Positions 1,252 to 16,700 of a stretch of DNA of 19,359 bases are shown piece by piece. The stretch is taken from contig JAGLYR010000041.1 of the NCBI GenBank assembly GCA_023132135.1, positions 1 through 19,359 on the forward strand, written 5' to 3'. The number at the start of each line of letters is the position of its first letter. The first letter of the stretch is position 1. The DNA is from Candidatus Eiseniibacteriota bacterium (GTDB lineage: Bacteria > Arandabacterota > Arandabacteria > JAGLYR01). The notes below the pieces were generated by a model that saw nothing but the letters and a program-made list of their open reading frames with translations, was not told the origin of the DNA and did not search any database. A program made the position numbers and the translations under genes.

Positions 1252-1260
1252 TCCGATTGT

Positions 1261-1348: not shown

Positions 1349-1448
1349 TTTTCTTTCTTATCGAGCCCGACTTGTCAACGGATCTTCCTGCCGGTGCCGT
1401 AGTTCCCGGGCTTTCCTTGATCCTACTCTGCCAAGTCGGTCCCGTCAA

Positions 1449-1501: not shown

Positions 1502-1511
1502 ACCAACCGCG

Positions 1512-1560: not shown

Positions 1561-1621
1561 CAGTGGAGGAGGGGTGTGCACAGCGCGCGTCGGGTCTCAG
1601 GATCAATCAAGGATAGCTTCT

Positions 1622-2743
1622 ATGAGTAGTAATAGTCTGAGAGAATTGAGAATAGGGGATCTGACAGCAGCAATTCCCATAATTCAAGGAGGAATGGGAG
1701 TTGGAATTTCTCTGTCAGGGCTGGCATCCGCAGTAGCTAACGAGGGTGGCATTGGAGTTATTTCTGCTGCTGTGATTGGCATGCGTGAGGCTGATCTTTT
1801 CACGAATTTCCTGGAAGCAAATGTCAGAGCGTTAAGAAGTGAGATCAGAAAAGCGAGAGAATTGACCAAGGGAATCCTTGGTGTCAACATCATGGTGGCA
1901 GTATCGAATTTCGCGGACATGGTGAGAACTGCTATTGAGGAAGAAATAGACATTATTTTTTCCGGGGCAGGACTTCCCCTCAACCTTCCCCAGTATCTGG
2001 AGGGAACCAGGAAGACGAAGCTGGTTCCCATTGTTTCCTCTGGAAAGGCCGCCGGTATTATTCTTAAAAGATGGCTAACAAGATATGACTACATCCCTGA
2101 TGCCATAGTCGTAGAGGGACCGATGGCAGGGGGGCATCTCGGGTTCAAACCGGAACAGATCAGCGATCCCAAGCATTCGTTGGAAAAGCTGATTCCGGAA
2201 GTGATTAGCGCGATGAGCCTATCCGACGAAAAATCTGCGGAGTCTATTCCGATAATCGCTGCTGGAGGCATATATACAGGAGAAGATATCCACAAATTCT
2301 CGCAATTGGGCGCCTCTGGAGTGCAGATGGGAACACGCTTTGTTACCACCCATGAATGCGATGCATCGATGGGATTCAAACAAGCTTATCTTGATGCAAG
2401 CAAGGAAGATATTGTGATTATCAAGAGTCCGGTTGGTATGCCGGGAAGAGCGATTAGAAACAGTTTCATTGATGATATTGACAAAGGGGGAAAGAAGCAG
2501 TTCAGATGCTCCTATAGGTGTATAAGGACCTGTGATCATAGAAACAGTCCCTATTGCATTGCTCTTGCTCTGATAAATGCCCAAAAGGGTGATCTGAAAC
2601 GTGGATTTGCATTTGCTGGAGAGAATGCCTACAGAACAAAGGAGATTATTTCTGTTAAAGAGTTGATAGCGTCTTTGCTGGAAGAGTATGAGAATGCGTC
2701 AGCTACTGTTTCAGGACCTGCGCCCCATTTTGTGACATCATAG
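1622..2743 (+). CDS. Nitronate monooxygenase / FabK-like FMN oxidoreductase
   Basis: A 373-residue TIM-barrel flavoprotein of the 2-nitropropane dioxygenase/NPD family, which includes nitronate monooxygenases and FabK enoyl-ACP reductases. Visible signatures are PIIQGGMGVGIS near the N-terminus, EGPMAGGHLGF with the family's conserved His, the FMN-phosphate-binding AAGGIYTG, and LGASGVQMGTRF. Near the C-terminus a Cys cluster (C-x3-C-x3-C-x7-C) precedes GENAYR and SVKELI, typical of the YrpB-like subgroup. I chose the ATG with AAGGA 8 nt upstream and an N-terminus like FabK (LRIGDL then IPIIQGG); an upstream GTG at 1574 would add 16 unconserved residues. The gene is clearly AT-richer than its neighbours (24 of 60 G+C at 1621-1680 against 41 of 60 at 3061-3120), and its last residues lie in a 53-bp repeat. 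Both suggest acquisition by transfer. The substrate cannot be told. Confidence 0.87.
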   Translation: MSSNSLRELRIGDLTAAIPIIQGGMGVGISLSGLASAVANEGGIGVISAAVIGMREADLFTNFLEANVRALRSEIRKARELTKGILGVNIMVAVSNFADMVRTAIEEEIDIIFSGAGLPLNLPQYLEGTRKTKLVPIVSSGKAAGIILKRWLTRYDYIPDAIVVEGPMAGGHLGFKPEQISDPKHSLEKLIPEVISAMSLSDEKSAESIPIIAAGGIYTGEDIHKFSQLGASGVQMGTRFVTTHECDASMGFKQAYLDASKEDIVIIKSPVGMPGRAIRNSFIDDIDKGGKKQFRCSYRCIRTCDHRNSPYCIALALINAQKGDLKRGFAFAGENAYRTKEIISVKELIASLLEEYENASATVSGPAPHFVTS

Positions 2744-2752
2744 AATCCGACC
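2700..2752. repeat. Direct repeat, right copy (53 bp), overlapping the end of the nitronate monooxygenase gene
   Basis: This copy is 45/53 identical to 1449-1501 in the same orientation. It supplies the last 14 codons and the stop of the gene, so the protein's C-terminal residues are repeat-derived. Just downstream, CCCACAA occurs three times in a row (2753, 2762 and 2774). Confidence 0.8.
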
Positions 2753-2805
2753 CCCACAAGACCCACAATTGCCCCCACAATTATTCTGCTCTACGTCTGT
2801 TATCG

Positions 2806-2834
2806 TTGACTCCGTCCCAAGCATATGATAGAAT
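2806..2834 (+). promoter_or_regulatory. Promoter of the beta-helix gene
   Basis: TTGACT (2806-2811), a 17-nt spacer and TAGAAT (2829-2834), each hexamer one base from consensus. The start is predicted near 2841, giving a leader of about 180 nt before the ATG at 3023. That leader contains only a 33-codon ORF (2861-2962) with a weak ribosome site. Confidence 0.7.
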
Positions 2835-3022
2835 TTGCGGGAAACTTGAGAGATTCGCCTATGAGTAGGTTTCTTGGCTGGTCAGGGGACTGTTGCATAG
2901 GCCTTCCAGCCCAACTTGAGAGGAGGGGTATCGGAGCGAGGCAACTGTTCAGTGGTGGTTGAGGTTGGGAGGAACGGAGTCAGTGATGTTTTGTGAGCTA
3001 ACCAAATCCGGAGGTTGAGACG

Positions 3023-4237
3023 ATGAAGAGGTGCTCTATTGCAACAGCCATCCTCGTGGTGGTGCTTGGCGCGACGGCGTCGTGGGCAGACGTCATCCAC
3101 GTGCCTGCCGACTACACGACTATCCAGGCCGCACTGAATGCCGCCATCTCGGGCGACATCATCGTGGTAGCCGCAGGCACATACGCTGGGTTCACCGCCG
3201 CGACGCCCAGTGTCGAGCTGCGTGGTGCTCAGTACAACATTGATCCGAACGGGGCGCTCTACAGAGGCACCGGTGACGTTGACGAGTCAGTCATAACCAG
3301 TACGATCATGATCACCGCCGACTACGTTACCGTAAACGGTTTCAAGACCAGCTACCCTATTAATGTCGGCTATGATCACGCCTGGCATGTGAACATCAGC
3401 TACAACATCTCGCAGGATGCTGACGGACACTGGGGCGCCATCCACCTCCACGGAGTGGCGGCAGGGCCGATCTACAACCAGTGTGACTTCGCCTACATAG
3501 GGTACAACACGATCAGTGGCACTACGTCTCCTGACTGGCAGGGCGGCGGGATCTGGACCGTCGGCAATGATGATGTCACGATCGAACACAACCACGTCCT
3601 CAACAGCAAGTACATGGGCATCATAGCCCTCAACCATGTGGGCGCCAGGAACCACATCCTTCACAACACCGTCACCGGCTCGGGTCACACACCCATTAGA
3701 TTCTGGGGCGGTTCTGAAGCGGACATCAGCTACAATGTCGTTGATGGCGCTGTTTATGACGGACTCTGGGTCGATCAAGCGGCCGACAACAGCACGGTCA
3801 GCTACAACGAGATCTCCAACGTCACGTACGCGGCAGTCGCCCTCCGAACCGGAGCCGCGGGGGTCAATGTCCACAACAACACAATCACGACCAGCGGCAC
3901 AGGAATCGAAGTGAGGGGAACGAACGTCACTGCGACAGACAACTGTATCCATCACAACCTGGATGGGATCGTCCTGCATGACACAGCGACGGGCGTCTTC
4001 CACGACAACGATATCCACGACAACACCTACTGGGGCCTGAACAACAACACCGGTGTTCTGGTCGACGCCGAGAACAACTGGTGGGGCCACTCAACTGGAC
4101 CCTATCACCCAACCGTGAATCCGAGCGGACTGGGAAACCCTGTGAGCGACGACGTAGACTTCTCCCCGTGGACCACAGGGCCGACGGGTGCTGAGCCCAC
4201 AACGTGGGGACACATCAAGAGCCTCTTCAACAGGTAG
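3023..4237 (+). CDS. Secreted right-handed parallel beta-helix protein (NosD/pectate-lyase-like fold)
   Basis: A 404-residue exported protein. A signal peptide (residues 1-22, cleavage after SWA) leads into the usual opening IHVPADYTTIQAAL...GDIIVVAAGTY. About ten beta-helix coils follow, visible as recurring short motifs such as ISYNxIS, IEHNHV, ILHNTVTGSG and VHNNTI. It closes with the family-typical ENNWWGHSTGPYHP and SDDVDFSPW. No catalytic residues for polysaccharide cleavage can be assigned, so surface or extracellular carbohydrate binding is as likely as lysis. The last residues, TTWGHIKSLFNR, follow the helix as a separate short tail and may be a sorting or anchoring signal. GGAGG precedes the ATG. 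The gene has its own promoter and terminator, so it is monocistronic. Confidence 0.85.
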   Translation: MKRCSIATAILVVVLGATASWADVIHVPADYTTIQAALNAAISGDIIVVAAGTYAGFTAATPSVELRGAQYNIDPNGALYRGTGDVDESVITSTIMITADYVTVNGFKTSYPINVGYDHAWHVNISYNISQDADGHWGAIHLHGVAAGPIYNQCDFAYIGYNTISGTTSPDWQGGGIWTVGNDDVTIEHNHVLNSKYMGIIALNHVGARNHILHNTVTGSGHTPIRFWGGSEADISYNVVDGAVYDGLWVDQAADNSTVSYNEISNVTYAAVALRTGAAGVNVHNNTITTSGTGIEVRGTNVTATDNCIHHNLDGIVLHDTATGVFHDNDIHDNTYWGLNNNTGVLVDAENNWWGHSTGPYHPTVNPSGLGNPVSDDVDFSPWTTGPTGAEPTTWGHIKSLFNR

Positions 4238-4256
4238 ACGGTGCAACACTCGATGG

Positions 4257-4286
4257 AAAAGGGGCTGAGTTCTCTCAGCCCCTTTT
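4257..4286 (+). terminator. Rho-independent terminator after the beta-helix gene
   Basis: A perfect 13-bp stem (4257-4269 with 4274-4286) with a TTCT loop, ending in TTTT. The stem begins 19 nt after the stop codon. Confidence 0.9.
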
Positions 4287-4321
4287 CGCGTACCCTACGT
4301 TACACGCCCCCCCCACCCCCT

Positions 4322-4370
4322 CTTGACATGGTGCAAAAACCGGGGTAGCGTCTAGTGTGGGGAGATGGGG
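4322..4370 (+). promoter_or_regulatory. Promoter of the CYTH operon; copy 2 of the duplicated promoter block
   Basis: TTGACA (4323-4328), a 17-nt spacer and TAGCGT (4346-4351); start predicted near 4358, 20 nt before the chosen ATG. Similarity to 1512-1560 extends past the -10 to AGATGGGG, so the initially transcribed region is shared as well as the core promoter. Confidence 0.7.
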
Positions 4371-4377
4371 TGGGGCT

Positions 4378-5079
4378 ATGCTGAACAAGATACTCACAGT
4401 TGCGCAAATGGGGAATCGAGAGTTGCCATCCAATATTGAGATCAAAGCTATGGTCAGAGAACTGGACCGGTTCAGATTTATTGCGATGCGCATCGCCACA
4501 GAACCGTGCCGGACACTTCATCAAGAGGACGTTTTCTTCCGCGTCAGAAAGGGAAGATTCAAGCTGCGAATCTTCTCGGACAGTTCCGGTGAGCTGATAC
4601 AGTATGAACGTCCAAATGCCCGTGGAGCCAGGCAGTCCGATTACCGGATTTACAGCACCTCCAAGCCGCTGGAGTTGCGGAAATTGCTGGCGGATGCTCT
4701 GGGCGAGACCGTTACGGTGAAGAAGAAGAGAGAGGTCTACATGGTAGGGCAGACCAGGATTCATCTGGATGAGGTCGATGAATTGGGGACTTTCGTGGAA
4801 CTGGAGGTTGTTCTGGATTCTAACCAGACCCCGGAACAAGGGCGGAGTATTGTATCCGAGCTCATGGAGAAGTTGGGTATCCAAGAGTCTGACTTGGTTC
4901 CTTGTGCCTATGCGGACCTTCTGCAAGACAAGGCCGAACAAGGGGCTGGAGACCGATTGTGCCTTCGCAGCAGCAGCTCAACCCCGCCGCCAGGCCAGAA
5001 AGAAAGGACAGACTATGAATCCGCTGACGAGCTGGATTGCCTACTGGAATCGGAAAGTCAGGAAGTTCACGATCTTTGA
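4378..5079 (+). CDS. Class IV adenylate cyclase-like CYTH domain protein
   Basis: A cytosolic CYTH (CyaB/thiamine triphosphatase) tunnel-fold protein of 233 residues. Family features in order are NIEIK at residues 19-23 (the ExExK metal-binding motif with Asn in the first slot, as in many class IV homologs), DVFFRVRKGRFKLRIF, a YERP...DYRIY strand pair, KKKREVY, and RIHLDEVDELGTFVELEVVL. The domain ends at AYADLL, about residue 182. These features favour class IV adenylate cyclase or a related triphosphate-cleaving enzyme; the product is not provable here. Residues 183-233 are a low-complexity Ser/Glu-rich tail whose last 65 nt overlap the next gene. Start choice: the predicted transcript begins near 4358, so the in-frame ATG at 4357 would be leaderless; 4378 follows a G-rich stretch. 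ATG 4408 is also possible but lacks a ribosome site. Confidence 0.78.
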   Translation: MLNKILTVAQMGNRELPSNIEIKAMVRELDRFRFIAMRIATEPCRTLHQEDVFFRVRKGRFKLRIFSDSSGELIQYERPNARGARQSDYRIYSTSKPLELRKLLADALGETVTVKKKREVYMVGQTRIHLDEVDELGTFVELEVVLDSNQTPEQGRSIVSELMEKLGIQESDLVPCAYADLLQDKAEQGAGDRLCLRSSSSTPPPGQKERTDYESADELDCLLESESQEVHDL

Positions 5080-5257
5080 CGTGAAACTCGTACAAGGCGC
5101 AGCAATGGCCTTTGCCCTGATCATCGCTAAGTTGTTTCCACAGATCATGAGTTTGAGCATTTGGTGGTTCGTTGCGTTTCTGGTTATTTGCTTCTTGCGC
5201 CCCGCTTCTGTTATCTGGGCAAAGGATGACGAGACAGGCCAACAGGGAGTCGCCTGA
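5015..5257 (+). CDS. Small membrane protein of unknown function (80 aa)
   Basis: An 80-residue protein I do not recognise. It has an amphipathic, basic N-terminus (SWIAYWNRKVRKF) and two predicted transmembrane segments around residues 28-46 and 50-66, the second Trp/Phe-rich (IWWFVAFLVICFL), then a short polar tail. The ATG has AAAGGA about 6 nt upstream. It starts inside the 3' end of the CYTH gene (65-nt overlap in another frame), so the two are probably translationally coupled. A role linked to the CYTH protein is guesswork. Confidence 0.65.
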   Translation: MNPLTSWIAYWNRKVRKFTIFDVKLVQGAAMAFALIIAKLFPQIMSLSIWWFVAFLVICFLRPASVIWAKDDETGQQGVA

Positions 5258-5347
5258 CGGCGTCGGCACATGCCCCGCCGCCCTTCGCCCGCGGCTGATA
5301 CGCGAGTCGCTAGATTGACACCAAACGTACTGAATGGAGGATGACTG

Positions 5348-5551
5348 ATGGCTGATCGTAGAATCAAGCCTCCGCCTCGGTGGTTTTTCTCGATTCTGGG
5401 TGTAGGGGCTTTCGTAGCCTGCGGGATCTACCTGGGGATGATTCGAGTAGAGGGTGTTTCAACAGGGCATGCTATCCGTGCCGTCGGGTTTGGCGTATTG
5501 GGTCTCCTGATGCTGTGGGGAATGCTCGGCAAGCGACAAGATATTCACTAG
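5348..5551 (+). CDS. Small membrane protein of unknown function (67 aa)
   Basis: A 67-residue protein with a basic start (MADRRIKPPPRW) and two hydrophobic segments, about residues 12-31 and 43-59, joined by a short polar loop and ending in a charged tail. TGGAGG lies 8-9 nt before the ATG. It is the second very small two-helix membrane protein in the same cluster but shows no clear sequence similarity to the first. A TTGACA lies 28 nt upstream but has no matching -10, so I read this gene as part of the CYTH transcript. No function can be assigned. Confidence 0.65.
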   Translation: MADRRIKPPPRWFFSILGVGAFVACGIYLGMIRVEGVSTGHAIRAVGFGVLGLLMLWGMLGKRQDIH

Positions 5552-5609
5552 TTTTCCACCGACATGATCCAGAGCTTCTGAAATGGTGGAACTGGAAGGA
5601 GAAAGCGAT

Positions 5610-6095
5610 ATGGCCGAGCACACGCCCGAGCACACGATAGAAAGCTGGGAAGGAAGTACGTTCAAGGCCGCGGCCATAGGCCCTTTCAAGAACCTGGACA
5701 AGTATTCGTATGCGCTGCCCGGCTCGTCGATAACTGTCAGCGGAAAGCTCTTTCTGAATGAACTGCTGGGATTGACCGGCAGCGAGATCTCTTTCAATAA
5801 GCTACCGCCAAAGCAATCCATGCCCTTCTACCACAAGCATCACAAGAACGAAGAGGTGTATATCTTCCTGTCAGGTGAAGGGGACTTCCAGATAGATGAT
5901 GAAGTTTTTCCGGTAAAAGAAGGAACCGTCGTGCGTGTCCACCCCGACGGAGAGCGGACCTGGAGGAATGTATCAAATTCCAATGATCTGACCTATATCG
6001 TGATACAGGCCCCCGCGGGACAGATCGAAGCCACGAAAACGAACGATGGTGTTGCTCTCAAGAAGAGTGTCAGTTGGGTCAATACCGTGGTTTAG
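5610..6095 (+). CDS. Cupin-domain protein
   Basis: A 161-residue single-domain cupin, cytosolic (no signal). Cupin motif 1 is intact: H75-K-H77-H78-K-N-E81-E82, then VYIFLSGEG, supplying two His and a Glu as metal ligands. Motif 2 is degenerate: in HPDGERTWRN (residues 111-120) the usual His after PxG-x2 is Thr117, so the metal site may have three ligands, or the nearby His111 may substitute. The likely role is a small-molecule isomerase, dioxygenase or sensor; nothing narrows it. I chose the ATG at 5610 because GGAGA sits about 8 nt upstream; the in-frame ATG at 5583 lacks a ribosome site. Confidence 0.8.
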   Translation: MAEHTPEHTIESWEGSTFKAAAIGPFKNLDKYSYALPGSSITVSGKLFLNELLGLTGSEISFNKLPPKQSMPFYHKHHKNEEVYIFLSGEGDFQIDDEVFPVKEGTVVRVHPDGERTWRNVSNSNDLTYIVIQAPAGQIEATKTNDGVALKKSVSWVNTVV

Positions 6096-6098
6096 CAC

Positions 6099-6127
6099 TT
6101 GACATTCCATCCTGGGATGCATACCCT
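6099..6127 (+). promoter_or_regulatory. Promoter of panD
   Basis: TTGACA (6099-6104), a 17-nt spacer and TACCCT (6122-6127), beginning 3 nt after the cupin stop. The start is predicted near 6134, 48 nt before the panD ATG, so panD can be expressed apart from the cluster before it. Confidence 0.65.
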
Positions 6128-6181
6128 TTTCTCAGGTAGCGCGCGGGCTCATTGACCCATGGCCGTGCCGAGGGAAACAAG

Positions 6182-6550
6182 ATGGCAATACGCAAGATGT
6201 GCAAATCGAAGATCCACCGGGTCACCGTGACCGAATGCGACCTCGACTACGAGGGGAGTATCACGATAGACGCCGAGCTGCTGGAAGCGGCCGACATCCT
6301 GCCGTACGAGCAGATCATGGTGGCAAATATAAACAACGGTCAACGATTCGAGACCTACGCAATTGAAGGCCCTCGCGGCTCCGGGGTCATCTGCGTCAAC
6401 GGAGCCGCCGCCCGACTGGCTGCCAAGGGCGATCTCGTGATTGTGATTTCTTCGACGTACCTTGACGAGAAGGATTGCCTTGACTATCGTCCGAAGGTTG
6501 TGAACGTAGACGCGAAAAATCGGCCGCGCCAGGTGGCGGAGAAGAGATAG
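6182..6550 (+). CDS. panD: Aspartate 1-decarboxylase
   Basis: A pyruvoyl-dependent enzyme converting L-aspartate to beta-alanine for pantothenate and coenzyme A synthesis. The 122-residue length matches the family (126 in E. coli). The self-cleavage site is YEGS, with processing between Gly25 and Ser26 to form the pyruvoyl group. Other conserved features are [12 protein letters not shown] near the start, QRFETYAI (Arg, Thr and Tyr of the active site) and [13 protein letters not shown]. The ATG beginning MAIRKM matches the usual N-terminus; a start 10 codons earlier would be atypical. No other pantothenate gene lies in the window. Confidence 0.95.
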
Positions 6551-6571
6551 AGAAATCCAGAGATTGATCGT

Positions 6572-6605
6572 GAAGGGCAGGCCGACGGCCTGCCCTTCTT
6601 TTTTG
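6572..6605 (+). terminator. Rho-independent terminator after panD
   Basis: A perfect 12-bp stem (6572-6583 with 6587-6598) with a 3-nt loop, followed by a run of T. It starts 21 nt after the panD stop and ends the 4322-6605 gene cluster. Confidence 0.92.
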
Positions 6606-6646
6606 GGGAAAGTCCTCTCGTCCTGTGAGTGGATGGGTGGTCGAGA

Positions 6647-6676
6647 CGGTACAGGCCGTTCATGTTTTATGTACCG
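6647..6676. promoter_or_regulatory. Candidate enhancer (activator-binding) site upstream of the lipoprotein promoter
   Basis: CGGTAC (6647-6652) and its reverse complement GTACCG (6671-6676) lie 18 bp apart, centred about 172 bp upstream of the predicted sigma54 start. The same half-site pair recurs at 11126-11145 before the second sigma54-type promoter, with a spacer 10 bp (one helical turn) shorter. The distance suits an NtrC-type enhancer. Binding by the regulator encoded at 9771 is inference. Confidence 0.45.
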
Positions 6677-6806
6677 GAGCGTGCACTGGATTCAGGTCGG
6701 CCCGCCTTGGACTGGGGATTCCCGAACCCTCCGGACCTCCGCTATCATTCACAGATTCAATCCATTGCAGCCCCCAACCCAAGTCTCTTCGATTCCCGGA
6801 CATGAT

Positions 6807-6821
6807 TGGCATGGCCCTTGC
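6807..6821 (+). promoter_or_regulatory. Sigma54 (-24/-12) promoter of the lipoprotein gene
   Basis: TGGCAT-N5-TTGC matches the sigma54 consensus TGGCACG-N4-TTGC at 10 of 11 fixed positions, with the invariant GG (6808-6809) and GC (6820-6821) exactly 10 nt apart. The start is predicted near 6833, about 90 nt before the ATG. Confidence 0.65.
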
Positions 6822-6921
6822 GCATACAACCCGGGCGGCGCCACAGTCCAGTTCGTAACGCAAACAGCCGATGAATCTCAAGCGGCAGACCGGGCGAGAG
6901 CCCACCACAGAGGAGGACATC

Positions 6922-8007
6922 ATGAGACGGATCCCGTTCACCCTGTTGATCGCCATCGTGGCCGTGGCTCTGGTAACCCCCGGCTGCGACTTACTCACAG
7001 GCTCCGACGAGTCGAACTCGGACGAGCCCTTGCCCGTGGCGCCATCGGAGCTGAACCTCACCTTCGGCGGGTACGAACCCGAGAACGAGGACGCGGGATT
7101 CGGCGACCCAACCATTCTGGCGGAGTTCACCGACGATGCCGAGCAGTTCGTCGATGATGAGATAGCGCAGGACCCCGAGGTCCTGGCTATGGAGAACATG
7201 CCCGAGACGGATGTCTACTTCCTCCGCATCACCTGGGGTCATCTGGAGCGGGAAGGCAGTTCGGAGATGGACTGGAGCGGATCCGCCAGCGTGATCAACG
7301 GCGCCATAGTAGTCCGCAAGACTATTCTCTTCGACGCGGGCGACTACATCCATCGCCCGCGGGAAGACCGCCGCACGCTGGAGTGGACATCCTACACCTA
7401 CGATCACCTGGACGGACTATCACTCATCGTGTTTGATCCGCCTTCGATTCTCACCGACGACGCCGTCCTGAACCAGTTCTCCTTTGAGACGGGTCCCTAC
7501 TCCCACACCTTCGACATCTACGAACTGGCGAACCTGGACACTGTGATCACCGTGGACAACGACGGGAACGCTATCCACTTTACCAGTGTGAAGCGCGAAC
7601 CCGGCCTCTGCAAGATCGGGTTCATGAGGGGCGAGTGGTTTCGCAGGGGCATAGACTGGGGAGAATTCCGCGGTGGGTGGATTGGTGAAGATGAGGAGCT
7701 CCGCGGTCACATCCACGGAATCTGGGGCTACGACGCGGACGGTCGGAACGTTCTCTTCGGCAAATACGTCGACATCGATGGGAACTTCATGGGCCTCCTC
7801 CGGGGAACATTCGGACGGCACCCCACCACGAGCCGGACGGACGGCGTGGGGTGGTTCCGGGGCCACTGGTTCGACAAGGACCACGAAGTCCAGGGCGCCT
7901 TCGCCGGCCGGTGGAAAGAACCTCGGGGCCGCGGTAACAACGGCTACTTCCGGGGTATCTGGGGAAGAGACTGTCCCTATCTCGAAGCGGATCTTGCCCA
8001 ACGCTAG
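6922..8007 (+). CDS. Predicted lipoprotein with a C-terminal G-x-x-R-G-x-W repeat domain
   Basis: A 361-residue envelope protein I cannot name. The signal peptide (MRRIPFTLLIAIVAVALVTPGC) ends in a lipobox-like TPGC, a loose match, so lipid attachment is likely rather than certain. An acidic linker (SDESNSDEP) and a uncharacterised middle domain (about residues 45-225) follow. From residues 233 to 347 there are eight short repeats of the form G-x-F/L/I-R/H/A-G-x-W/F/Y (GFMRGEW, GEFRGGW, GHIHGIW, GLLRGTF, GWFRGHW, GAFAGRW, GYFRGIW and a weaker VLFGKY), spaced roughly 12-20 residues apart, as in a stack of beta-hairpins. AGGAGG sits 7 nt before the ATG. It is preceded by a sigma54 promoter and followed by the sensor kinase gene, so it may be an envelope component controlled by, or sensed by, that system. 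Confidence 0.72.
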   Translation: MRRIPFTLLIAIVAVALVTPGCDLLTGSDESNSDEPLPVAPSELNLTFGGYEPENEDAGFGDPTILAEFTDDAEQFVDDEIAQDPEVLAMENMPETDVYFLRITWGHLEREGSSEMDWSGSASVINGAIVVRKTILFDAGDYIHRPREDRRTLEWTSYTYDHLDGLSLIVFDPPSILTDDAVLNQFSFETGPYSHTFDIYELANLDTVITVDNDGNAIHFTSVKREPGLCKIGFMRGEWFRRGIDWGEFRGGWIGEDEELRGHIHGIWGYDADGRNVLFGKYVDIDGNFMGLLRGTFGRHPTTSRTDGVGWFRGHWFDKDHEVQGAFAGRWKEPRGRGNNGYFRGIWGRDCPYLEADLAQR

Positions 8008-8018
8008 TTGAATGGGCC

Positions 8019-8039
8019 GGGGAGTGGAAGCAGCTCCCC
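8019..8039 (+). terminator. Weak hairpin after the lipoprotein gene
   Basis: A GGGGAG/CTCCCC stem of 6 bp with a 9-nt loop lies 12 nt after the stop, with only a short T/G-rich tail. It could be an inefficient terminator or a 3' stabilising hairpin. Confidence 0.35.
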
Positions 8040-8054
8040 ATGTTGTGTGCACAG

Positions 8055-8086
8055 GGCTAGGGGCGACCTCCAGGTCGCCCCTAGCC
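8055..8086. repeat. Perfect 15-bp inverted repeat
   Basis: GGCTAGGGGCGACCT (8055-8069) and its exact reverse complement (8072-8086) are separated by 2 nt. No T run follows, so it is not a standard terminator. It abuts the larger palindrome at 8085-8131, sharing 2 nt. Confidence 0.8.
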
Positions 8087-8131
8087 TGGATTATGCATGG
8101 ACCCCGCGCCGGGGTTCATGCATAATCCAGG
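8085..8131. repeat. 47-nt palindrome between the lipoprotein and sensor kinase genes
   Basis: The outer arms CCTGGATTATGCATG (8085-8099) and CATGCATAATCCAGG (8117-8131) pair perfectly. The inner ACCCCG/CGGGGT continues the stem to a 3-nt loop with one G-T pair, about 22 bp in all. TGCATAAT, at its arms, occurs again at 8206-8213 next to the start of the kinase gene. Confidence 0.8.
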
Positions 8132-8137
8132 CAGAGC

Positions 8138-8179
8138 AGTGGAGAGTAGAAAGCAGATAGTGGAGCCCGGAGACAGGAG
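8138..8179. repeat. Degenerate heptamer array (6 units)
   Basis: AGTGGAG, AGTAGAA, AGCAGAT, AGTGGAG, CCCGGAG and ACAGGAG follow one another in a strict 7-bp register, purine-rich on the plus strand, upstream of the kinase gene. Confidence 0.5.
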
Positions 8180-8234
8180 CTTATAGCGCCGGGCCGCAGA
8201 ATCCGTGCATAATGCGGGCCAGCACAAGGTTGCC

Positions 8235-9572
8235 ATGATTCAATCCTCTGACCGAACTCTCTACCACTTCCTGGTCTTCATCCTCCTCGCTATCGTCGCC
8301 GTTGCTACCAGCAACGTGTGGCTCTACCGTGAGTTCGCTGCGCGGCTGGATCATTCTCTCGGCGAGCATCTCCAATCGACGGCTGAGGCAGCGTCTCGCC
8401 TCATCGATGCCGAGATCCTTCTCGACACTGCCGGCGATTCCACCACGATCAATCTGGACTATGTTGACCTCCTTCTGGCGGACCGTCTGCAGGAATTCGC
8501 GGAGAGTTTCGGGATTGACGAAATCCTGCTGCTCGACGACAGCTTCCGCCTGGTCTACGACAGCGGCGAGACGTACCTTGTGGGCGATCCCTATCCCTAC
8601 CTGGAACCGGATACCGAAGCCATCCGGTTGGCGATCGAAGAGGGTCGATCGTACTCCCCCACCACGAAGGTCGGACGAGCCTATCTGAAGCGCGGGTTCG
8701 CCCCGGTACTGAATCCATCGGGAGGCTGGACGGCGCTTCTGGTCCTGGAGGCGGACGTTGACTTCTTTGAACTGCTGGGAACATGGAAGCGGACGCTGAC
8801 CTCCATGACAATCGGGATCGCCGTGATCCTGGCTCTTCTCGCCCTGCTGTTCCTGCGACTCTGGAGCTCAGGCGATCGAGCCCGGCGGCTCCTCATCCGG
8901 CAGGACAAGCTGGCGACCCTTGGCCGGATGGTCTCCCAGGTCGCCCACGAGATCAGGAATCCCCTCGGCATCATCCGGATCTCGGCACAGCGTCTCCGGC
9001 GGGCCACGCACGACCCCCGGCACGAGGAGATGATCGACTACATCCTGACCGAAGCAGACCGCCTGGACCACACGGTGGAGCGCTATCTCGACTACGCCAA
9101 GGGACAGCCCGTCAGACGGGAAGGTGTTTCGACCCGGAAGTTCCTCCGCGAAGTCGTGGCGGAATTTCAGCGTTCAGAGCCTGGCGAGATCGAACTCCGC
9201 ACGAGAGCCGCGGGCCCGGACACCGTTTGGGTCGACCGCGCCCGCTTCAAACAGCTACTGTACAATCTCATCCAGAACTCCGTGAAGGCCGGCGCCCGGC
9301 GTGTTACCATCGGCGCGGATCCGGATTTTTCATCGAGGAGACCAGCGGTTCGCTGGACCGTTGAGGACGATGGGGCGGGCATTGCACCGCGCCAGCGAAA
9401 GCGCGTGTTCGAGCCTTTCTACACCACTCGCCCCGACGGCAGCGGTCTCGGTCTTTCGATTGTCCAGCAAATTGCCGAGGAACATGGGGGAACAGTGTCG
9501 ATTCAATCTCGCGACAGGGGCGGAACCGTCGTGACGGTCGTGATTCCCGCTGGAGACGCGGAGAAAACCTGA
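8235..9572 (+). CDS. Membrane sensor histidine kinase (NtrB/AtoS/ZraS-like)
   Basis: A 445-residue inner-membrane kinase of a two-component system. One transmembrane helix lies near residues 10-28, a periplasmic sensor region of about 160 residues follows, and a second helix spans about 190-211. No clear HAMP domain intervenes before the dimerisation/phosphoacceptor helix KLATLGRMVSQVAHEIRNPLG, with phospho-accepting His238. The ATP-binding domain shows the N box (NLIQNS, Asn348), G1 (DDGAGI, 378-383), F box (FEPFYTT) and G2 (GSGLGLSIVQQI). This HEIRNP subtype typically partners NtrC-type sigma54 activators, and such a gene lies directly downstream. I chose the ATG at 8235, with AAGG about 6 nt upstream; a GTG at 8205 would add 10 residues. 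The signal sensed is unknown; the sensor region has no motif I recognise. Confidence 0.9.
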   Translation: MIQSSDRTLYHFLVFILLAIVAVATSNVWLYREFAARLDHSLGEHLQSTAEAASRLIDAEILLDTAGDSTTINLDYVDLLLADRLQEFAESFGIDEILLLDDSFRLVYDSGETYLVGDPYPYLEPDTEAIRLAIEEGRSYSPTTKVGRAYLKRGFAPVLNPSGGWTALLVLEADVDFFELLGTWKRTLTSMTIGIAVILALLALLFLRLWSSGDRARRLLIRQDKLATLGRMVSQVAHEIRNPLGIIRISAQRLRRATHDPRHEEMIDYILTEADRLDHTVERYLDYAKGQPVRREGVSTRKFLREVVAEFQRSEPGEIELRTRAAGPDTVWVDRARFKQLLYNLIQNSVKAGARRVTIGADPDFSSRRPAVRWTVEDDGAGIAPRQRKRVFEPFYTTRPDGSGLGLSIVQQIAEEHGGTVSIQSRDRGGTVVTVVIPAGDAEKT

Positions 9573-9573
9573 C

Positions 9574-9741
9574 GCGAGAACCGAGAGCCGAGAGGCGAGA
9601 GCCGAAAGCTGAAAACCGAAAGCTGAAAACCGAAAGCCGAAAACCGAAAGCCGAAAACCGAAAGCCGAAAGCCGAAAACCGAGAGCCGAAAACCGAAAGC
9701 CGAAAACCGAAAGCCGAAAACCGAAAGCCGAAAACCGAGAT
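9574..9741. repeat. 24-unit heptamer tandem repeat (CCGAAAR) between kinase and regulator
   Basis: Twenty-four consecutive 7-bp units run for 168 bp with no register slip. Inner units alternate CCGAAAG and CCGAAAA (effectively 14 bp); outer units are degenerate (CCGAGAG, GCGAGAG, CTGAAAA). The array begins right after the kinase stop and ends 29 nt before the regulator ATG. The plus strand is purine-rich with almost no self-complementarity, so the transcript spacer should be unstructured. Confidence 0.92.
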
Positions 9742-9770
9742 TTGATCCAGCAGACGAAAGGTCGAAGTGA

Positions 9771-11105
9771 ATGGCCAGAATCCTGATCATTGACGACGAG
9801 GAAAAAATGTGCCGTCTCGTGGCGGGCGAGCTGGACGAGCTGGGGCACGAAGTGCGCTGGACCGTCCGCAGCCGGGAGGCGATGGGGATCCTCGAGAACT
9901 CAGAGTACGACGTCGTAATCACGGACTTGCGGATGGATCCTCCTGATGGACTTGAGATTCTCAGGTTCGTGAAGGACCGGGCCCCCACCACCGAGGTCGT
10001 GCTGATGACGGCGTACGCATCGGCCCAGACAGCGGTCGAAGCCATGAAGTCCGGCGCCTATGACTACCTCGTCAAACCTTTCGACATCGACGAGCTCACC
10101 CTCATGGTGGGAAAAATCGTAGAGAAACAGGACCTGAAGCTGGAGAACGTGCAGCTCAAGGAAGCCATGGCCGGGGGACCAGCAACGCTGGTCGGGGAAT
10201 CGGAGGGCTTTCAGCGAGTGCGGGATCTCATCGACAAGGTGGCAATCGAGGAGACCCCCGTGTTCATCACGGGCGAGAGCGGCGTGGGCAAGGAGCTCGT
10301 TGCTCGCCAGATCCACGCGCAGAGTCCGCGGGCCGGGCAGCCCTTCATCGCAGTCAACTGTTCCGCGTTCCCGGAAACTCTCCTCGAGAGCGAGATTTTC
10401 GGCTACGAGCGCGGGGCGTTCACCGGCGCGGGCAAGAAGAGACTGGGCTGGTTCGAAATTGCGGGAGCGGGCACCCTCTTCCTGGACGAGGTCGCCGACA
10501 TCAGCCCCTCGGTCCAGGTGAAGCTCCTCCGCGTGCTTCAGGACCGCACGTTCACGCGCCTGGGGAGCAACCAGCCGATCTCTCTTCAGGCGCGCATTCT
10601 CTCGGCCACCAACCGGGATGTAAGAGAAGCAATTGACGAGAACCGGCTTCGCGAAGACTTCTTCTACCGGTTGAGCGTCTTCCCCATTCATGTGCCTCCA
10701 CTGCGCGAAAGGCCGGACGACATTCCACCTCTGGTGAAGCACTTCCTCAAGAAAAGGGGCAAGGGCGCGTCGGTGGAACCCGACGCCATGCATCAACTCC
10801 AGCGCCACTCGTGGCCGGGCAACGTGCGGGAGTTGGAGAATGCTGTGGAGCGAGCGGCCATCCTCTCCGGGGGGAAACCCATCACCGTTCGCGATCTGTC
10901 CTTCGGCGCCATTGCGGGGGACGCGCATGGGGCGGAGTCCATGAGGCAAATTCCCCCGGAAGGACTCAATATTGAAGACCTGGAGGCGGACCTTATCCGG
11001 TCTGCCCTCCACCAGACGGGCGGCAACAAGGCTGAAGCAGCAAGGTTGCTGGGAATGACGCGCCGGCGTTTGTACTCGAGGATGTCGAAGCATGGAATTC
11101 AGTGA
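9771..11105 (+). CDS. NtrC-family sigma54-dependent response regulator
   Basis: A 444-residue transcription activator. Residues 1-120 are a receiver domain with acidic pocket DDEE (8-11) and phospho-acceptor Asp52 (VVITDLRM), ending near DYLVKPF. The central AAA+ domain carries Walker A GESGVGKE (168-175), the sigma54-contacting GAFTGA loop (215-220), Walker B LFLDE (Asp239-Glu240) and the REDFFYRLSVFPI and WPGNVRELENAVERA segments. A Fis-type helix-turn-helix closes the protein (NKAEAARLLGMTRRRLYSRMSKHGI). All residues needed for ATP hydrolysis and sigma54 activation are present. The ribosome site is weak (AAAGG or AAGTG). It is presumably phosphorylated by the adjacent kinase and transcribed with it across the heptamer array. 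The two sigma54-type promoters flanking the pair are its most obvious candidate targets. Confidence 0.95.
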   Translation: MARILIIDDEEKMCRLVAGELDELGHEVRWTVRSREAMGILENSEYDVVITDLRMDPPDGLEILRFVKDRAPTTEVVLMTAYASAQTAVEAMKSGAYDYLVKPFDIDELTLMVGKIVEKQDLKLENVQLKEAMAGGPATLVGESEGFQRVRDLIDKVAIEETPVFITGESGVGKELVARQIHAQSPRAGQPFIAVNCSAFPETLLESEIFGYERGAFTGAGKKRLGWFEIAGAGTLFLDEVADISPSVQVKLLRVLQDRTFTRLGSNQPISLQARILSATNRDVREAIDENRLREDFFYRLSVFPIHVPPLRERPDDIPPLVKHFLKKRGKGASVEPDAMHQLQRHSWPGNVRELENAVERAAILSGGKPITVRDLSFGAIAGDAHGAESMRQIPPEGLNIEDLEADLIRSALHQTGGNKAEAARLLGMTRRRLYSRMSKHGIQ

Positions 11106-11125
11106 TTGCCGGCTCCTGTCCCACA

Positions 11126-11145
11126 CGGTACGAGTAACCGTACCG
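11126..11145. promoter_or_regulatory. Candidate enhancer site upstream of the helical-protein promoter
   Basis: CGGTACG (11126-11132) and CGTACCG (11139-11145) form a 7-bp inverted repeat with a 6-bp spacer, centred about 157 bp upstream of the predicted sigma54 start. It shares CGGTAC/GTACCG half-sites with 6647-6676. No T run follows, so a terminator reading is weaker, though a hairpin after the regulator gene cannot be excluded. Confidence 0.45.
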
Positions 11146-11266
11146 CGCGGTTCAGATGAGCGGTGGGGAACCTTTGCAGACCGGCCCGCATCGGCGGCTA
11201 CGTCTTTAACTTCTTGCTCCGTAGTCTGATACACGCGCGTTGATTCTGTTTTGATTTGCCCGCGCC

Positions 11267-11281
11267 TGGCCCGGATCCTGC
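11267..11281 (+). promoter_or_regulatory. Sigma54 (-24/-12) promoter of the helical-protein/barrel pair
   Basis: TGGCCCG-N4-CTGC matches 9 of 11 fixed consensus positions and keeps the invariant GG (11268-11269) and GC (11280-11281) 10 nt apart. The start is predicted near 11293, just ahead of the AAAGGAG ribosome site at 11298-11304. Confidence 0.5.
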
Positions 11282-11314
11282 GGTATCCGTATGCAGGAAA
11301 GGAGAACCGTGAAG

Positions 11315-12412
11315 ATGATCGCCCATCACATACGCTGCAAGGTTGCCAGGTCGATACTTCTGACGGTCGCTCTGGCCTGCCTGATGCTGACGCTCGCAGC
11401 GAGTGAGGTTGGCGCCCAGCTGCGGAGTGATGAAGAACTGGCCAGGCGGCAGCTGGCCCAGGCCGAAGAGGCCTACCGGCGCCTGCTGGAGGAGCTTTCC
11501 GTCCCCACGCCCGGAAGCGCTGCGACCGACCGACAATTGAACCAGGCGATTCTCCAGGTCCGGCAGCTGCTGGACAAGTCGCAGGAGCTCCTGCACGCAG
11601 GAAACCACAGATTGTCCTACAAGCTCTCCCGCGAAGCCCTGGAGCTGATCCTCAAGATCGCCAAGGAATTGCGTCGCTTGTCCGTGAGACTCCGGCTCAC
11701 GGATCGATTCATCGAACAAAGCCGGGAGGCCCTGGAACTCCTTCGACAACGTGCGCGTCTGGAGCCGATGAACGAGAAAACCGAGCGCATGCTGGATCTG
11801 GCCGTTGACACCTTTCACCGGGCTCTCGCTGCGCGGGATCGGGGCGAGCTCCTGCTGTCCTTCAAACTGATCGAGCAGACGGGAGACCTCGTCAAGAAGA
11901 TCGCCAAGAGCCTCGGCGGACCCGCCATTTCGCAGGAAAGACTCTTCCGCGACCTGGAGCGGACCGACGAAATACTGGACGACATCTCATCGGTCTTGGG
12001 CGAGACGGACCGACCCGGGGTCGGAACCGTCGTGGACCGAGCCCGCGCTGTCCAGGGGCAGGCTCAGGTTCAATACGAAGACGGGAACCTGGATTTCGCC
12101 CGGCGGCTGACCCTCCGGGCCCGAAGCCTCGCTCGCCTGGGCCTCCGCCTGGCTGACCGGGCGCCGGCCACCGAGACTGAAAGGGTTCTGACTCACACGG
12201 ATGACCTGATCGAGAGGTATGCGGAGAGGATTCGCGCCGGCGGAAATGCCCAGGCCATCACGTTGTTGGAAGACGCCGTGGCTCTCCAGGGAGAAGCATG
12301 GGATTCGTTTCATGATGACCAGATCGACGTGGCCTTGACAAGAACCCGGGCCGCCGCCAAACTTGTCAACGCGGCCGGCAAGAAAACCCTTGGTGCGGAC
12401 GCTGATCTCTAG
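11315..12412 (+). CDS. Secreted alpha-helical repeat protein of unknown function
   Basis: A 365-residue predicted periplasmic protein. The signal peptide is SILLTVALACLMLTLAASEVGA, with cleavage before QL. The rest is almost wholly helical, Leu/Ala/Arg/Glu-rich, with at least four copies of a helix-turn-helix motif in which a Gly or Asp turn precedes a helix ending in a Leu/Ala face: AGNHRLSYKLSREALELI, RGELLLSFKLIEQTGDLV, DGNLDFARRLTLRARSLA and DDQIDVALTRTRAAAKLV. This resembles TPR-like or other helical-repeat scaffolds without matching one exactly. GGAG lies 10 nt before the ATG; a GTG two codons earlier is an alternative start. It ends 30 nt before the outer-membrane barrel gene, so the two probably form an operon and may act together at the envelope. 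Confidence 0.7.
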   Translation: MIAHHIRCKVARSILLTVALACLMLTLAASEVGAQLRSDEELARRQLAQAEEAYRRLLEELSVPTPGSAATDRQLNQAILQVRQLLDKSQELLHAGNHRLSYKLSREALELILKIAKELRRLSVRLRLTDRFIEQSREALELLRQRARLEPMNEKTERMLDLAVDTFHRALAARDRGELLLSFKLIEQTGDLVKKIAKSLGGPAISQERLFRDLERTDEILDDISSVLGETDRPGVGTVVDRARAVQGQAQVQYEDGNLDFARRLTLRARSLARLGLRLADRAPATETERVLTHTDDLIERYAERIRAGGNAQAITLLEDAVALQGEAWDSFHDDQIDVALTRTRAAAKLVNAAGKKTLGADADL

Positions 12413-12442
12413 CCGGCCCCCGCGTCGATGCAGGTAGAATCT

Positions 12443-13738
12443 ATGCGCTCCCTTCCTCCAGCTCTTCTCCCCGGCTGCATTGCCTTCGTGGCCGCGATAA
12501 CTCTCACGCACATCCCCGCTCTCGCCCGGCCCGCGGGCTGGTCGAGAGAAATCCGGCTCGGGTACGATCGCCTTTCCCACGACTACCGGCTTATCGATCA
12601 GGACACAACCAACACCTTCAGCGAGGGCAATGTGCGGTTGAGAGTGGCCTACCGTCCTTCCTCGCTCAGCGGCGGAGAACCGGAGGGCAAGGCGGCGTTT
12701 TTTCTGGGAAAGGACTACTGGCAGGCGGACCTCGAGGTGGAGCAGGGGTTCAGCACACGCGCGTCGTGGTCCTGGCGCGGGGAGGTGAGCGGCAGGCAGT
12801 ACCTGTCTTCTTCCGACCTTTCCTTTTCGAACGATCACATCCAGGGCGAGGCGCGGGTGCGCTACCGGCGGGCCCTCATACCATCGATGGAGATCCAGAT
12901 CTCCGATCGGGTCCACGCCATTGCCTATTCCGAGCGGACCGGCTATCTCTATGACAGCTACCTCAACGATGCCCGGCTCTCTTGCAGAATTGGAGAGATC
13001 CTGTCAAATTCCCTGGACCTGGATCTGACCCACAAGAACCTGGCGGTCCCGGATTCTTCCTTCATCGGTTACACATCGAATGAGTTCACCGTGCAGTATT
13101 TCGGAATGTCCAGCCTCACAATGATGGTCACCGCGCGCAGCACCGTGGACTGGCGCCGGTATCCGAGCGGCAGTCCGCGCAGCAACTTCTTCCGGACCGA
13201 CAGTGATTTCTATGTGGATCGAGCCATGACAGACCGGATCGGCGTGGAGGCAGTCGCGCAGCTCAGGGCCGAGTGGTACGAAACCGTGGATCCCATCTAT
13301 CTCAATTCACAGACGTATGCTTTCCAGATTGGTCCCAGCGTGCAGATCAGCGACCGGTGGGAGCTGAAGCTTCTTCCCGGCGTGGAAATCTACAACATAT
13401 CGGACTTCGAGGATCCCTCGGCGACGCCCGCCGAGGATTGGATCTACATCCAGGAGAGCTACCGGGAGTACATCATCGAGATCGCATCCGACTACATGTG
13501 GCTGCCTGGATTCTGGGGCGATCTGTCTGCGCGGATCGGACACCGGAACTACGAGTTCTCCGACGGAGTTCTGGACTCTGACTACTGGTACCTGGATCTG
13601 AGCTTCCTGGCCGATATCCAACTGTGGGACGGCGTCCATGTCAACTTCGCCGGCCTCTTCTCGCCGGAAAAACACCGGGACCCGGAGGACAACACGGCGA
13701 TGAATGTGCTGAGTGCGTGGATAGGATACCGATTCTAA
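12443..13738 (+). CDS. Predicted outer-membrane beta-barrel protein
   Basis: A 431-residue exported protein. The signal peptide (about residues 1-29, ending near IPALA) is followed by many amphipathic strands of alternating polar and aromatic residues (REIRLGYDRLSHDY, ASWSWRGEVSGRQY, ARVRYRRAL, SARIGHRNYEF, YWYLDLSFLADIQLW). The chain ends WIGYRF; the terminal Phe is the usual recognition signal of the BAM insertion machinery. Tyr and Trp are frequent, as in barrel girdles. No porin, TonB or efflux signature is visible, so what it transports or displays is unknown. The ATG follows GCAGGTAG; an earlier in-frame ATG at 12428 is less likely. It is downstream partner of the helical-repeat gene and presumably shares its sigma54 promoter. 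Confidence 0.75.
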   Translation: MRSLPPALLPGCIAFVAAITLTHIPALARPAGWSREIRLGYDRLSHDYRLIDQDTTNTFSEGNVRLRVAYRPSSLSGGEPEGKAAFFLGKDYWQADLEVEQGFSTRASWSWRGEVSGRQYLSSSDLSFSNDHIQGEARVRYRRALIPSMEIQISDRVHAIAYSERTGYLYDSYLNDARLSCRIGEILSNSLDLDLTHKNLAVPDSSFIGYTSNEFTVQYFGMSSLTMMVTARSTVDWRRYPSGSPRSNFFRTDSDFYVDRAMTDRIGVEAVAQLRAEWYETVDPIYLNSQTYAFQIGPSVQISDRWELKLLPGVEIYNISDFEDPSATPAEDWIYIQESYREYIIEIASDYMWLPGFWGDLSARIGHRNYEFSDGVLDSDYWYLDLSFLADIQLWDGVHVNFAGLFSPEKHRDPEDNTAMNVLSAWIGYRF

Positions 13739-13747
13739 CAGCCTTGC

Positions 13748-16700
13748 CTATTTCATCCTCACTGCTTTCTCAATTCCCGATTCCGCCTCCTCATCCCCAC
13801 TGGTCGCCGTGATCCGATACAGGTACACACCGTTGGCGATGTCGTCACCGTCTTCATCATGCCCGTCCCACGGCACCGAGTTGAAATCCACGGCACCGGG
13901 ATGATAGAGGGTTCGGATTCTGTGGCCGGCAACGGTAAAGATGCGGATTCTCACGTCGGCCGTTCGTGTGAGGACGAAGGTGAAATCGGTCCCCTCCTGG
14001 AAGGGGCTCGGGTAGGCCACCACGGATTGGATCCTCAAGCGATCGTCCAGAAAGAAGGAAATCATCTCCTTCTCCAACGACCCGATCTGGAAAACGAGAT
14101 GGTACAGCCCGGGATCGAGGCCACTGACGGAGAAGGCGATCCGCCACCGTGTCCCGTTGTCGTTCAGGATTTCCGTGTCCGCCGCAATGATTTCGGTTCC
14201 CCGCGGACCCGCCAGCTTCACCGTCAGATCTCCCTCGGCCACCGCCAGCGGGAAGAGAACTTCCGTCTCCAGGTCCGCACCCGGCGGCACAGCGCTCCCA
14301 TTCACGATCAGCTGCCCGTCAGACCATGCCTGGAACGCAAATCCCACCTTCAGAACAAAGGAGACGGGACGGTCATTCCGGTCCGCGGCGTCAAAGAGAA
14401 TATCGTACTCAGCGAACTCGATCTCGTGGGGGTAGGTAATGTAGAGAACCCGGCCGCCGGTGACGGTCGTGTCCCGATCCACTTGGTAATCCTGACCGGC
14501 CACCAGCGTGGCGAGATCGTCCCCTCTCCGGATCCTCACCAGAATGGACGTGCTGTCTATGGCCACCTCGTCTCCAACGCGCACGCGAATGGCGACAACC
14601 GAGCTGTCACCGGCGGAGATTACTCCCCCGTTCTCGGCCGGAATGCCATCTACAGTGACAGACATGGTTGGCGGAAGCGCGTCCATCCGGAGCGCGGGAT
14701 CCCCAAGCAACACATACCGGTCCAGGAACTCCGTCCCATACGTATAGATAGCCGCCAGCCGGGCAATGGCGACGGCCTGAACCTCTCCCAGGAGCCACCG
14801 GGCGTGGGCAGCGCCGCCTGCATCCGCGTACGTTGGCAGTGTCCCAAAGAACGCGCCGTAGAGTTCCCGTTCGTACTGCGCGTTCGTGTTGGCGGCCTCG
14901 AGCGCCGTGCTTCCCAAGGCTGCCACCGCCCCCCTGCCGTCAAGGAACAGCATCTTCTCCAGGAGCGATTCCTGGGTGTTGGGGTCCTCTTCATCATACT
15001 GATCAAAGTCGGCGAAGTGGCATCCGAATCCATGGACCACGTACGGCTTGCCCTGATTCGCGGAGAAATCCCGAAGATCCTCCCGCACCGTAGCTCCGAG
15101 GAATCGCTTTCGGTCAAGGATCACGAACTCATCGAATACCGTCGATCGGTTCCCGTGTCCCTGGAAGGTGAACAGAAGAACCCCGTCGTTCAAGGCATCG
15201 AACAGCAATGGGGTCACCTTGGAGAACACCGAGTCCCGAATGCAATTCTGGGGAACGCTGATCGAGCTGTCGAAGCAGGACGCGTGGTAGCCATCGTCAA
15301 AGGTGTAACCGGTGTACGAGCTGAGGAGGATTTCTATCGCGTCCATGGGAGATCCCGGGCTGTTCCTGGCCAGCTCCGCCGCATCACCCGAAGCGGTCTC
15401 GAACTGGAGCTCGCTGGTTCTCAGACACCGGTAAGACACGCCGGAACACTGGTCGTCACCCAACAGACATACGCGGCCCCGCCAGGTGTCCTCAGGGGAG
15501 AACTCCTCATACGAGAGAATCTTGCTGAGAACCGCATCCAGATCGGCTTCCGACCCCACCGGAAGGCGGCCCAGGAAAATGTCCAGGAGCAAGGACTCAT
15601 CGTCGAATCGGACAAACCAGTTATCCACCGCCGCCAGTTCGTCGTGGGCGATACTGCTTATGGAAGGCACGTAGTCGGGACCGCTGGTTGCCAGGATCCC
15701 GCGATGATCCTCGCTGCCATCGCCCACAAGCAGTGCGAATTGGGGTTTCACCGTCCAGTGATCAAAGCCCCACTTAAGGTAGCGCTTGATGGCAACGGGA
15801 TCCTTCATCCCGCCGCTGAACTCATCGTACACATCCATGATGGAGGCGACCTGAACCTGGTATCCCTGCGACTGCCGGTAGTCCGCCAGGGCCTGGATCC
15901 CATCCGCAAACAGAGGATGGGTGATGATGATGTAGTCCCCCTCCGAATCGTGAAGAGTGGAGGACTCGTCCATCTGGATCTGATCCGCCGGCAGCCGCTT
16001 CGCCGCATCTCCCGCCAGTGCAACCCAGTGACCCGCAGCCCCCACACTGTCGGGCCCCACGCTGTCGGCGAACGCCAGCCGGTAGTCGCCACCTGTTTCT
16101 TCCACGGCGCCCGGAGGTAGAACCACCCACTTCTCTTCACCGGGCGTGCTCACATCGAAGAGAAGGATGGCATCATCGGTGAAGTTCTCGATAGCCAGGG
16201 CGACCGCTCCGCAGTGCTCTCCCGAGTTGAACACAAGGTAGTCGTCCCCGGCTTCGAGCCGCCGGTCGTAGGAAACCTCTACCCAGTCCAGGTACACTCC
16301 AGTCCGCTGGGACGTACCGGAACTCGTGACGCGATAGCCCTCGTAGGAAAAGTGATTCCTGCCCTCGGTCATCGCATCCGCGGGGAGAAGATCCCCCGAG
16401 TCGAAAACGTACTCGGAGAAATCGAAGAAGGAAAACTCGTCCAGCTCCTCCACGCCGCCCACTCCGCTGAAGATCTTCGGAGTCACAAAATGCGTTCCGC
16501 TTGCCCCACCAGTAAAGCGGGCGCGGACACGGGGCACAGAGATCGGGTCCTGGCCATAGATCGCGATCTCCACCTGGGCATCATGCAGGTTCCACCAGGT
16601 CCAGAACCATTGCTCGGCATCTCTCTCCGGCGGGACTCCATCGTAATCGGGTCCGATGGGCTCGTTCTCGTACTCCCGATCCTCTTCGAAGTGAAGGACC

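Follow-up and report, generated by a model that had tools for sequence, protein, structure and literature searches.

Genes and promoters of the locus

The 19,359-nucleotide stretch of DNA analysed here, referred to as the window, comes from contig JAGLYR010000041.1 (positions 1 to 19,359, forward strand; assembly GCA_023132135.1) of a Candidatus Eiseniibacteriota bacterium and carries the genes for a membrane histidine kinase and an NtrC-like response regulator, located between a lipoprotein gene and an operon for an exported helical protein and an outer-membrane beta-barrel protein (the helix-barrel operon). Both the lipoprotein gene and the operon are preceded by a -24/-12 promoter of the sigma54 type and, further upstream, by a putative enhancer (upstream activating sequence, UAS). 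The features are the following:

6647 to 6676, no strand assigned: putative UAS before the lipoprotein promoter, CGGTACA-N16-TGTACCG; its half-sites recur upstream of orthologous promoters
6807 to 6822, plus strand: sigma54-type -24/-12 promoter, TGGCATGGCCCTTGCG, from consensus match and shuffles
6922 to 8007, plus strand: gene for a lipoprotein of 361 aa, which has a signal peptide with Cys22 and a recurring GxFxGxW motif; a homologue lies downstream of the barrel gene in genome G185
8235 to 9572, plus strand: membrane histidine kinase, 445 aa, with HisKA and HATPase_c domains and a sensor region flanked by two predicted membrane segments
9771 to 11105, plus strand: NtrC-like response regulator, made up of a receiver (Asp52), an AAA+ domain with GAFTGA (10413-10430) and a Fis-type helix-turn-helix (HTH)
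11126 to 11145, no strand assigned: putative UAS before the helix-barrel promoter, CGGTACG-N6-CGTACCG
11267 to 11282, plus strand: sigma54-type -24/-12 promoter, TGGCCCGGATCCTGCG, weak alone and backed by nine other genomes that have a site at this position
11315 to 12412, plus strand: exported protein of 365 aa, all-helical, with three-helix bundles in tandem in the structure model
12428 to 13738, plus strand: outer-membrane beta-barrel protein, 436 aa, 20 strands predicted by the structure model, C-terminal YRF

The regulator shows the composition of the NtrC family, with a receiver, an AAA+ domain with an intact GAFTGA loop at residues 215-220 and a Fis-type HTH, and one strong match to rpoN was found in the same genome. 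Activators with GAFTGA remodel the sigma54 holoenzyme from upstream sites (PMC4987338). An earlier account of this DNA, made from its letters only (the sequence-only reading), had proposed an NtrB/NtrC-like pair with an intact GAFTGA loop and would have been abandoned in a genome lacking rpoN; the domains of both proteins and the loop bear out the pair, and the rpoN match removes this objection.

Neither Pfam nor NCBIfam returned a match for the three targets (lipoprotein, helical protein and barrel), and a limited literature search found no description of the target set or of its conservation, in line with the sequence-only reading, which had thought that the module may be undescribed. The regulatory logic itself is already known. 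From the comparisons described below, we consider it very probable that the kinase/NtrC pair drives the lipoprotein gene and the helix-barrel operon as a self-contained sigma54 envelope regulon. The common repeat, the synteny, the promoter site of the G185 lipoprotein gene and the orthology of the NtrC proteins support the single local regulon of lipoprotein, helical protein and barrel that had been put forward.

Two -24/-12 sites and a common inverted repeat

Site 1, TGGCATGGCCCTTGC (6807-6821), is an exact intergenic match to TGGCAYRN4TTGC, agrees with TGGCACG/TTGC at 10 of 11 positions and is followed, 100 nt downstream, by the lipoprotein ATG at 6922, which is preceded by GAGGAGG. It is the top-scoring -24/-12 site of the window, and when the 250 nt preceding the lipoprotein gene were shuffled 500 times its score was equalled once, all scores being relative to our weight matrix, which is an approximation of the consensus. 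Site 2, TGGCCCGGATCCTGC (11267-11281), agrees at 9 of 11 positions and is located 33 nt before the ATG at 11315. The GG-N10-GC spacing of the -24/-12 consensus is present upstream of a gene in both cases, and the positions and scores of both sites are those given in the sequence-only reading. An exact -24/-12 match was also noted at L020 (G000:C338:8059-8073), where a flagellar rod/hook-like gene begins 60 nt downstream and an overlapping frame is predicted as well; it is a possible sigma54 positive control for this genome.

Upstream of both sites lies an inverted repeat of the form CGGTAC-N-GTACCG. At 6647-6676 the arms are separated by 18 nt (16 with seven-base arms) and the repeat ends 131 nt before the -24 element of site 1, and at 11126-11145 the gap is 8 nt (6 with seven-base arms) and the repeat ends 122 nt before the -24 element of site 2; the second gap is thus shorter by ten bases, close to one turn of the helix. 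The repeat occurs twice in the window, a number reached in none of 200 shuffles, and at 10 places in the 3.4-Mb genome. As it had first been spotted by eye, a broader test was applied, in which any hexamer inverted repeat common to two shuffled upstream regions was counted, and such a repeat appeared in 2 of 5000 pairs. The repeat fits the expected appearance of a binding site for an NtrC-like regulator and is regarded as a putative one. The other eight copies of the genome were considered as further targets and set aside, only one of them (L062) having, about as far away, a -24/-12 site of moderate quality, which a predicted frame overlaps; this candidate was judged not convincing.

Conservation of the module and evidence for a common regulon

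Genes in other genomes, which are metagenome assemblies, were called from open frames and profiles and not from curated annotation, and the DNA upstream of the helix-barrel pair was compared in 10 genomes, the window's counted in. Barrel and helical genes recur as a neighbouring pair in other lineages and are absent from seven class relatives; a wider barrel search in annotated genomes gave the G013 contig only. The order kinase-NtrC-(-24/-12 site)-helix-barrel is that of the window in G076, G152, G153, G154 and G185, and the pair is likewise preceded by a -24/-12 site in G013, G060, G293 and G207. Conservation of the gene order, which the sequence-only reading had proposed as a check, thus holds from the kinase to the barrel in five other genomes, whereas the lipoprotein gene with a site of its own was found only in G185 of these. 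In each of the ten genomes for which upstream DNA is available, the best site is located 33-118 nt before the helix start, and its score was reached by 0-3 of 500 shuffles in nine genomes.

In barrel-carrying genomes one NtrC mostly scores well above its paralogues, for example 497 versus 361 bits in G013, with a small margin in G010 (370 versus 346 bits), and in the incomplete genome G061 no orthologous NtrC was found. In a phylogenetic tree, the 12 NtrCs of the module form one clade (support 0.995) and paralogues of the same genomes fall outside it; by this comparison the module NtrCs are one orthologous group. In G013, G165 and G293 the NtrC gene has as its neighbour a kinase with a similar sensor region, and in G207 a kinase core. 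The recognition helix of NtrC is near-identical in the window (MTRRRLYSRM), G013 and G060, and the latter two genomes have two TGTACC half-sites with identical 21-base spacing and position. In the G076 group the recognition helix differs (ITRRALYGRL) and the upstream regions are without clear GTACC repeats.

The lipoprotein family is characterized by the conserved Cys22 and repeated GxFxGxW motifs. In G185 a homologue (37% identity, E 7e-54) directly follows the barrel gene and has its own -24/-12 site, TGGCACCGGCGCTGCA, 75 nt before the ATG, with an upstream CCGTACA-N14-TGTACCC repeat. As six class relatives carry the lipoprotein gene without this kinase/NtrC pair beside it, the lipoprotein is an optional member of the module.

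Several observations weigh against the proposed regulon. By its own score site 2 is at background level, as the window has 49 sites with at most three mismatches when 53 are expected, five window sites besides site 1 outscore it and 11 of 500 shuffles reach its score. GTACC/GGTAC half-sites at 60-200 nt before the -24 elements number 18 compared with 3.6 in shuffles, and 0 of 400 shuffles reach 18, but four of the 18 come from the window that had suggested the motif and two, in G152 and G153, fall within the last part of the sequence coding for NtrC, so that the true margin over shuffles is smaller. The f69 genomes are without a clear GTACC repeat upstream, and six class relatives have the lipoprotein with neither the kinase/NtrC pair nor a strong -24/-12 site nearby.

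If both -24/-12 sites were chance matches, the genes would be transcribed from sigma70-type promoters, and both the background-level score of site 2 and the many exact matches of the genome in coding sequence would be as expected. The sequence-only reading had itself taken equally good matches in coding sequence as a reason for giving it up, and this turned out to be partly true: pattern searches, used genome-wide in place of matrix scoring, gave 19 exact matches to TGGCAYRN4TTGC, of which about seven, site 1 included, are intergenic by a rough open-reading-frame heuristic. With so many matches in coding sequence the motif score alone cannot settle the promoter question. Site 2 was therefore not judged by its own score, and its support is comparative. 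As a -24/-12 site is kept at the same position in nine other genomes and the upstream half-sites are conserved too, we regard chance matches as highly improbable.

Another view, which we rate as unlikely, is that only the helix-barrel operon is under the kinase/NtrC pair, and that the sigma54 promoter of the lipoprotein gene is served by another activator or that its site and repeat are coincidental. It would account for the lipoprotein genes of the six class relatives, for G013 and G060, in which the pair is present with no detectable lipoprotein homologue beside it, and for the gap of 16 in the lipoprotein repeat versus 6 in the helix repeat. The arrangement in G185, a genome of another lineage, argues for the common regulon instead, as does the window itself, where site 1, before the lipoprotein gene, outranks site 2 and the same repeat arms occur at both promoters. 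A second lipoprotein beside the G013 barrel was considered as a homologue and is unsupported (hhalign probability 2.8%).

Upstream of the lipoprotein gene in class relatives no conserved promoter was found, and a candidate structured RNA of 88 nt is located there instead. It occurs outside the window, in L053-L059 (G001-G007; for example L050 at about 6920-7010, minus strand), with a 54-nt core that is identical in 7 of 7 class relatives, one copy each, and in six of the seven it lies just upstream of the lipoprotein homologue. Three compensated pairs are present in its closing stem and a promoter-like TTGC...TATNNT precedes it. Rfam gave no match even at E 1, and the RNA was not detected in the window's own genome.

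Structure models of the helical protein and the barrel

The barrel was modelled with 20 antiparallel strands (pLDDT 83.7, pTM 0.76), and in alignments of the model to solved outer-membrane barrels the best Z was 20. The protein has the features of outer-membrane beta-barrel proteins, namely a closed antiparallel barrel, a C-terminal aromatic residue (YRF) and a signal peptide (judged by eye). The helical protein was modelled as tandem three-helix bundles (pLDDT 85.9, pTM 0.43), and whole-chain matches to solved structures were discarded as meaningless at this pTM. Single bundles resemble DUF357-type proteins (4fzp, 2pmr; TM about 0.8 over about 77 residues), a resemblance that tells little about function. 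The models are in agreement with the helical-protein/outer-membrane-barrel pair predicted after site 2 by the sequence-only reading. In the G076 family a short extra exported helical open reading frame is found between the helix and barrel genes (L119, 5787-6067; L136, flipped, 7852-8214), and an interspersed DNA repeat, which came to light because the first 64 codons gave scattered matches, precedes the G013 barrel gene (L046, about 3185-3349) and occurs at many places in G013, G060 and G062.

It is conceivable, though rather unlikely, that the barrel is an ordinary channel for nutrients or waste, induced by its substrate through a sigma54 two-component system and without a role in stress. 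Porins and TonB-type receptors are its best structural matches, the top NCBIfam models for regulator and kinase are AtoC and AtoS (far below cut-off) and sigma54 has been linked to transport and assimilation (PMC3162934). However, the module contains no recurrent transport or catabolic gene, its conserved partner is a long helical protein and not a binding protein, and the resemblance of the barrel is generic, for which reason MtrB or TonB-type matches were set aside as clues to its function.

Proposed mechanism of the regulon

The genes, promoters, common repeat, synteny and NtrC orthology rest on sequence comparison and the folds on models; from these we infer binding of the repeat by the regulator, activation, the signal and a physical partnership of helical protein and barrel. 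In the sigma54 envelope regulon proposed here, the membrane histidine kinase (8235-9572) would detect a periplasmic or membrane signal at the outer side of the inner membrane, as its domain layout suggests for an envelope sensor, and would phosphorylate the NtrC-like regulator (9771-11105). The latter may then bind the TGTACC/GGTACA inverted repeats about 120-130 nt upstream of both -24/-12 promoters and loop to RNA polymerase-sigma54, which would switch on transcription from 6807 (lipoprotein gene) and from 11267 (helix-barrel operon). The exported helical protein would work together with the 20-strand outer-membrane barrel, with the lipoprotein as an optional third member.

A wider reading is tentative and in our view somewhat doubtful: the module might be an undescribed sigma54-controlled envelope machine that several deep bacterial lineages have in common. 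Under a kinase/NtrC pair of their own, the 20-strand outer-membrane barrel and a rod built of tandem three-helix bundles would jointly reach across periplasm and outer membrane, and in some lineages a lipoprotein would be under the same control. Sigma54 has been proposed as the main controller of the bacterial exterior, and the regulon fits this proposal (PMC3162934). What began as a guess from two short motifs can now be spelled out as a regulon whose regulator, enhancer motif, promoters and targets are all named and which is conserved in lineages with almost no experimental work, and three protein families lacking a Pfam model gain a function-linked context. The predicted enhancer motif makes the regulon testable in a heterologous reporter, for which culture of the host is not needed.

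Other features of the window

Between the lipoprotein and kinase genes, at 8055-8132, there are two adjoining strong palindromes (15 bp, perfect; 23 bp, one mismatch) that contain ATTATGCAT, and the TGCATAAT part is found again near 8208. An array of 7-base units (CGAAAGC / CGAAAAC) occupies 9575-9742 between the kinase and regulator genes. On the minus strand, convergent with the barrel gene, 13748-17851 encodes a Peptidase C25 (gingipain-type) with propeptide and a C-terminal FlgD-like / type IX-like domain.

Comparison with known systems

The window agrees with NtrB/NtrC in how the domains of the regulator are arranged and in its dependence on sigma54, whereas its kinase is membrane-bound and NtrB soluble, its targets are envelope proteins and its regulator does not reach the NtrC equivalog cut-off (399.7 versus 558.6 bits). 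AtoS and AtoC are the best-scoring NCBIfam models for kinase and regulator, but the scores lie below cut-off (184 of 646 and 424.8 of 714, respectively) and no short-chain fatty acid genes are located nearby. The Psp system has an activator of the PspF type, which lacks a receiver, and PspA as its target; the window regulator has a receiver and the helical protein no PspA match, which sets both apart from it.

Slam joins a helical TPR domain to a barrel. As an outer-membrane barrel protein, it moves surface lipoproteins (PMC9090332, PMC5449769), and a split exporter of this kind, in which the barrel would deliver the lipoprotein to the cell surface with help from the helical protein, would parallel the co-control of helix, barrel and lipoprotein in the window as one functional set. 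We consider it quite improbable. PF04575 (Slam / SlipAM) has no match over the window barrel and a single weak one (E 0.002) among 14 barrels, 13 being unmatched; the genes are separate, the helical protein is modelled as three-helix bundles and not as a TPR fold, and a homologue of the window lipoprotein is missing at most helix-barrel loci.

In the ZraPSR system, a periplasmic chaperone is expressed in envelope stress from a sigma54 promoter that ZraR activates (PMC4987338). There, as in the window, a kinase and an NtrC-like activator stand beside the gene of a sigma54-controlled exported helical protein, and ZraR ranks with the nearest of the solved and curated relatives. The two systems differ in that the window target is a 365-residue tandem three-helix-bundle protein together with an outer-membrane barrel and that the window promoters are not divergent. 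Kinase and regulator remain far below the ZraS/ZraR equivalog cut-offs (145.2 of 479 and 388 of 760 bits, respectively), and none of 11 helical proteins matches the ZraP, LTXXQ or Metal_resist Pfam families, so that ZraP has no sequence relative among the targets. The most likely role of the window regulon would be a response in envelope maintenance or outer-membrane transport that works like ZraPSR.

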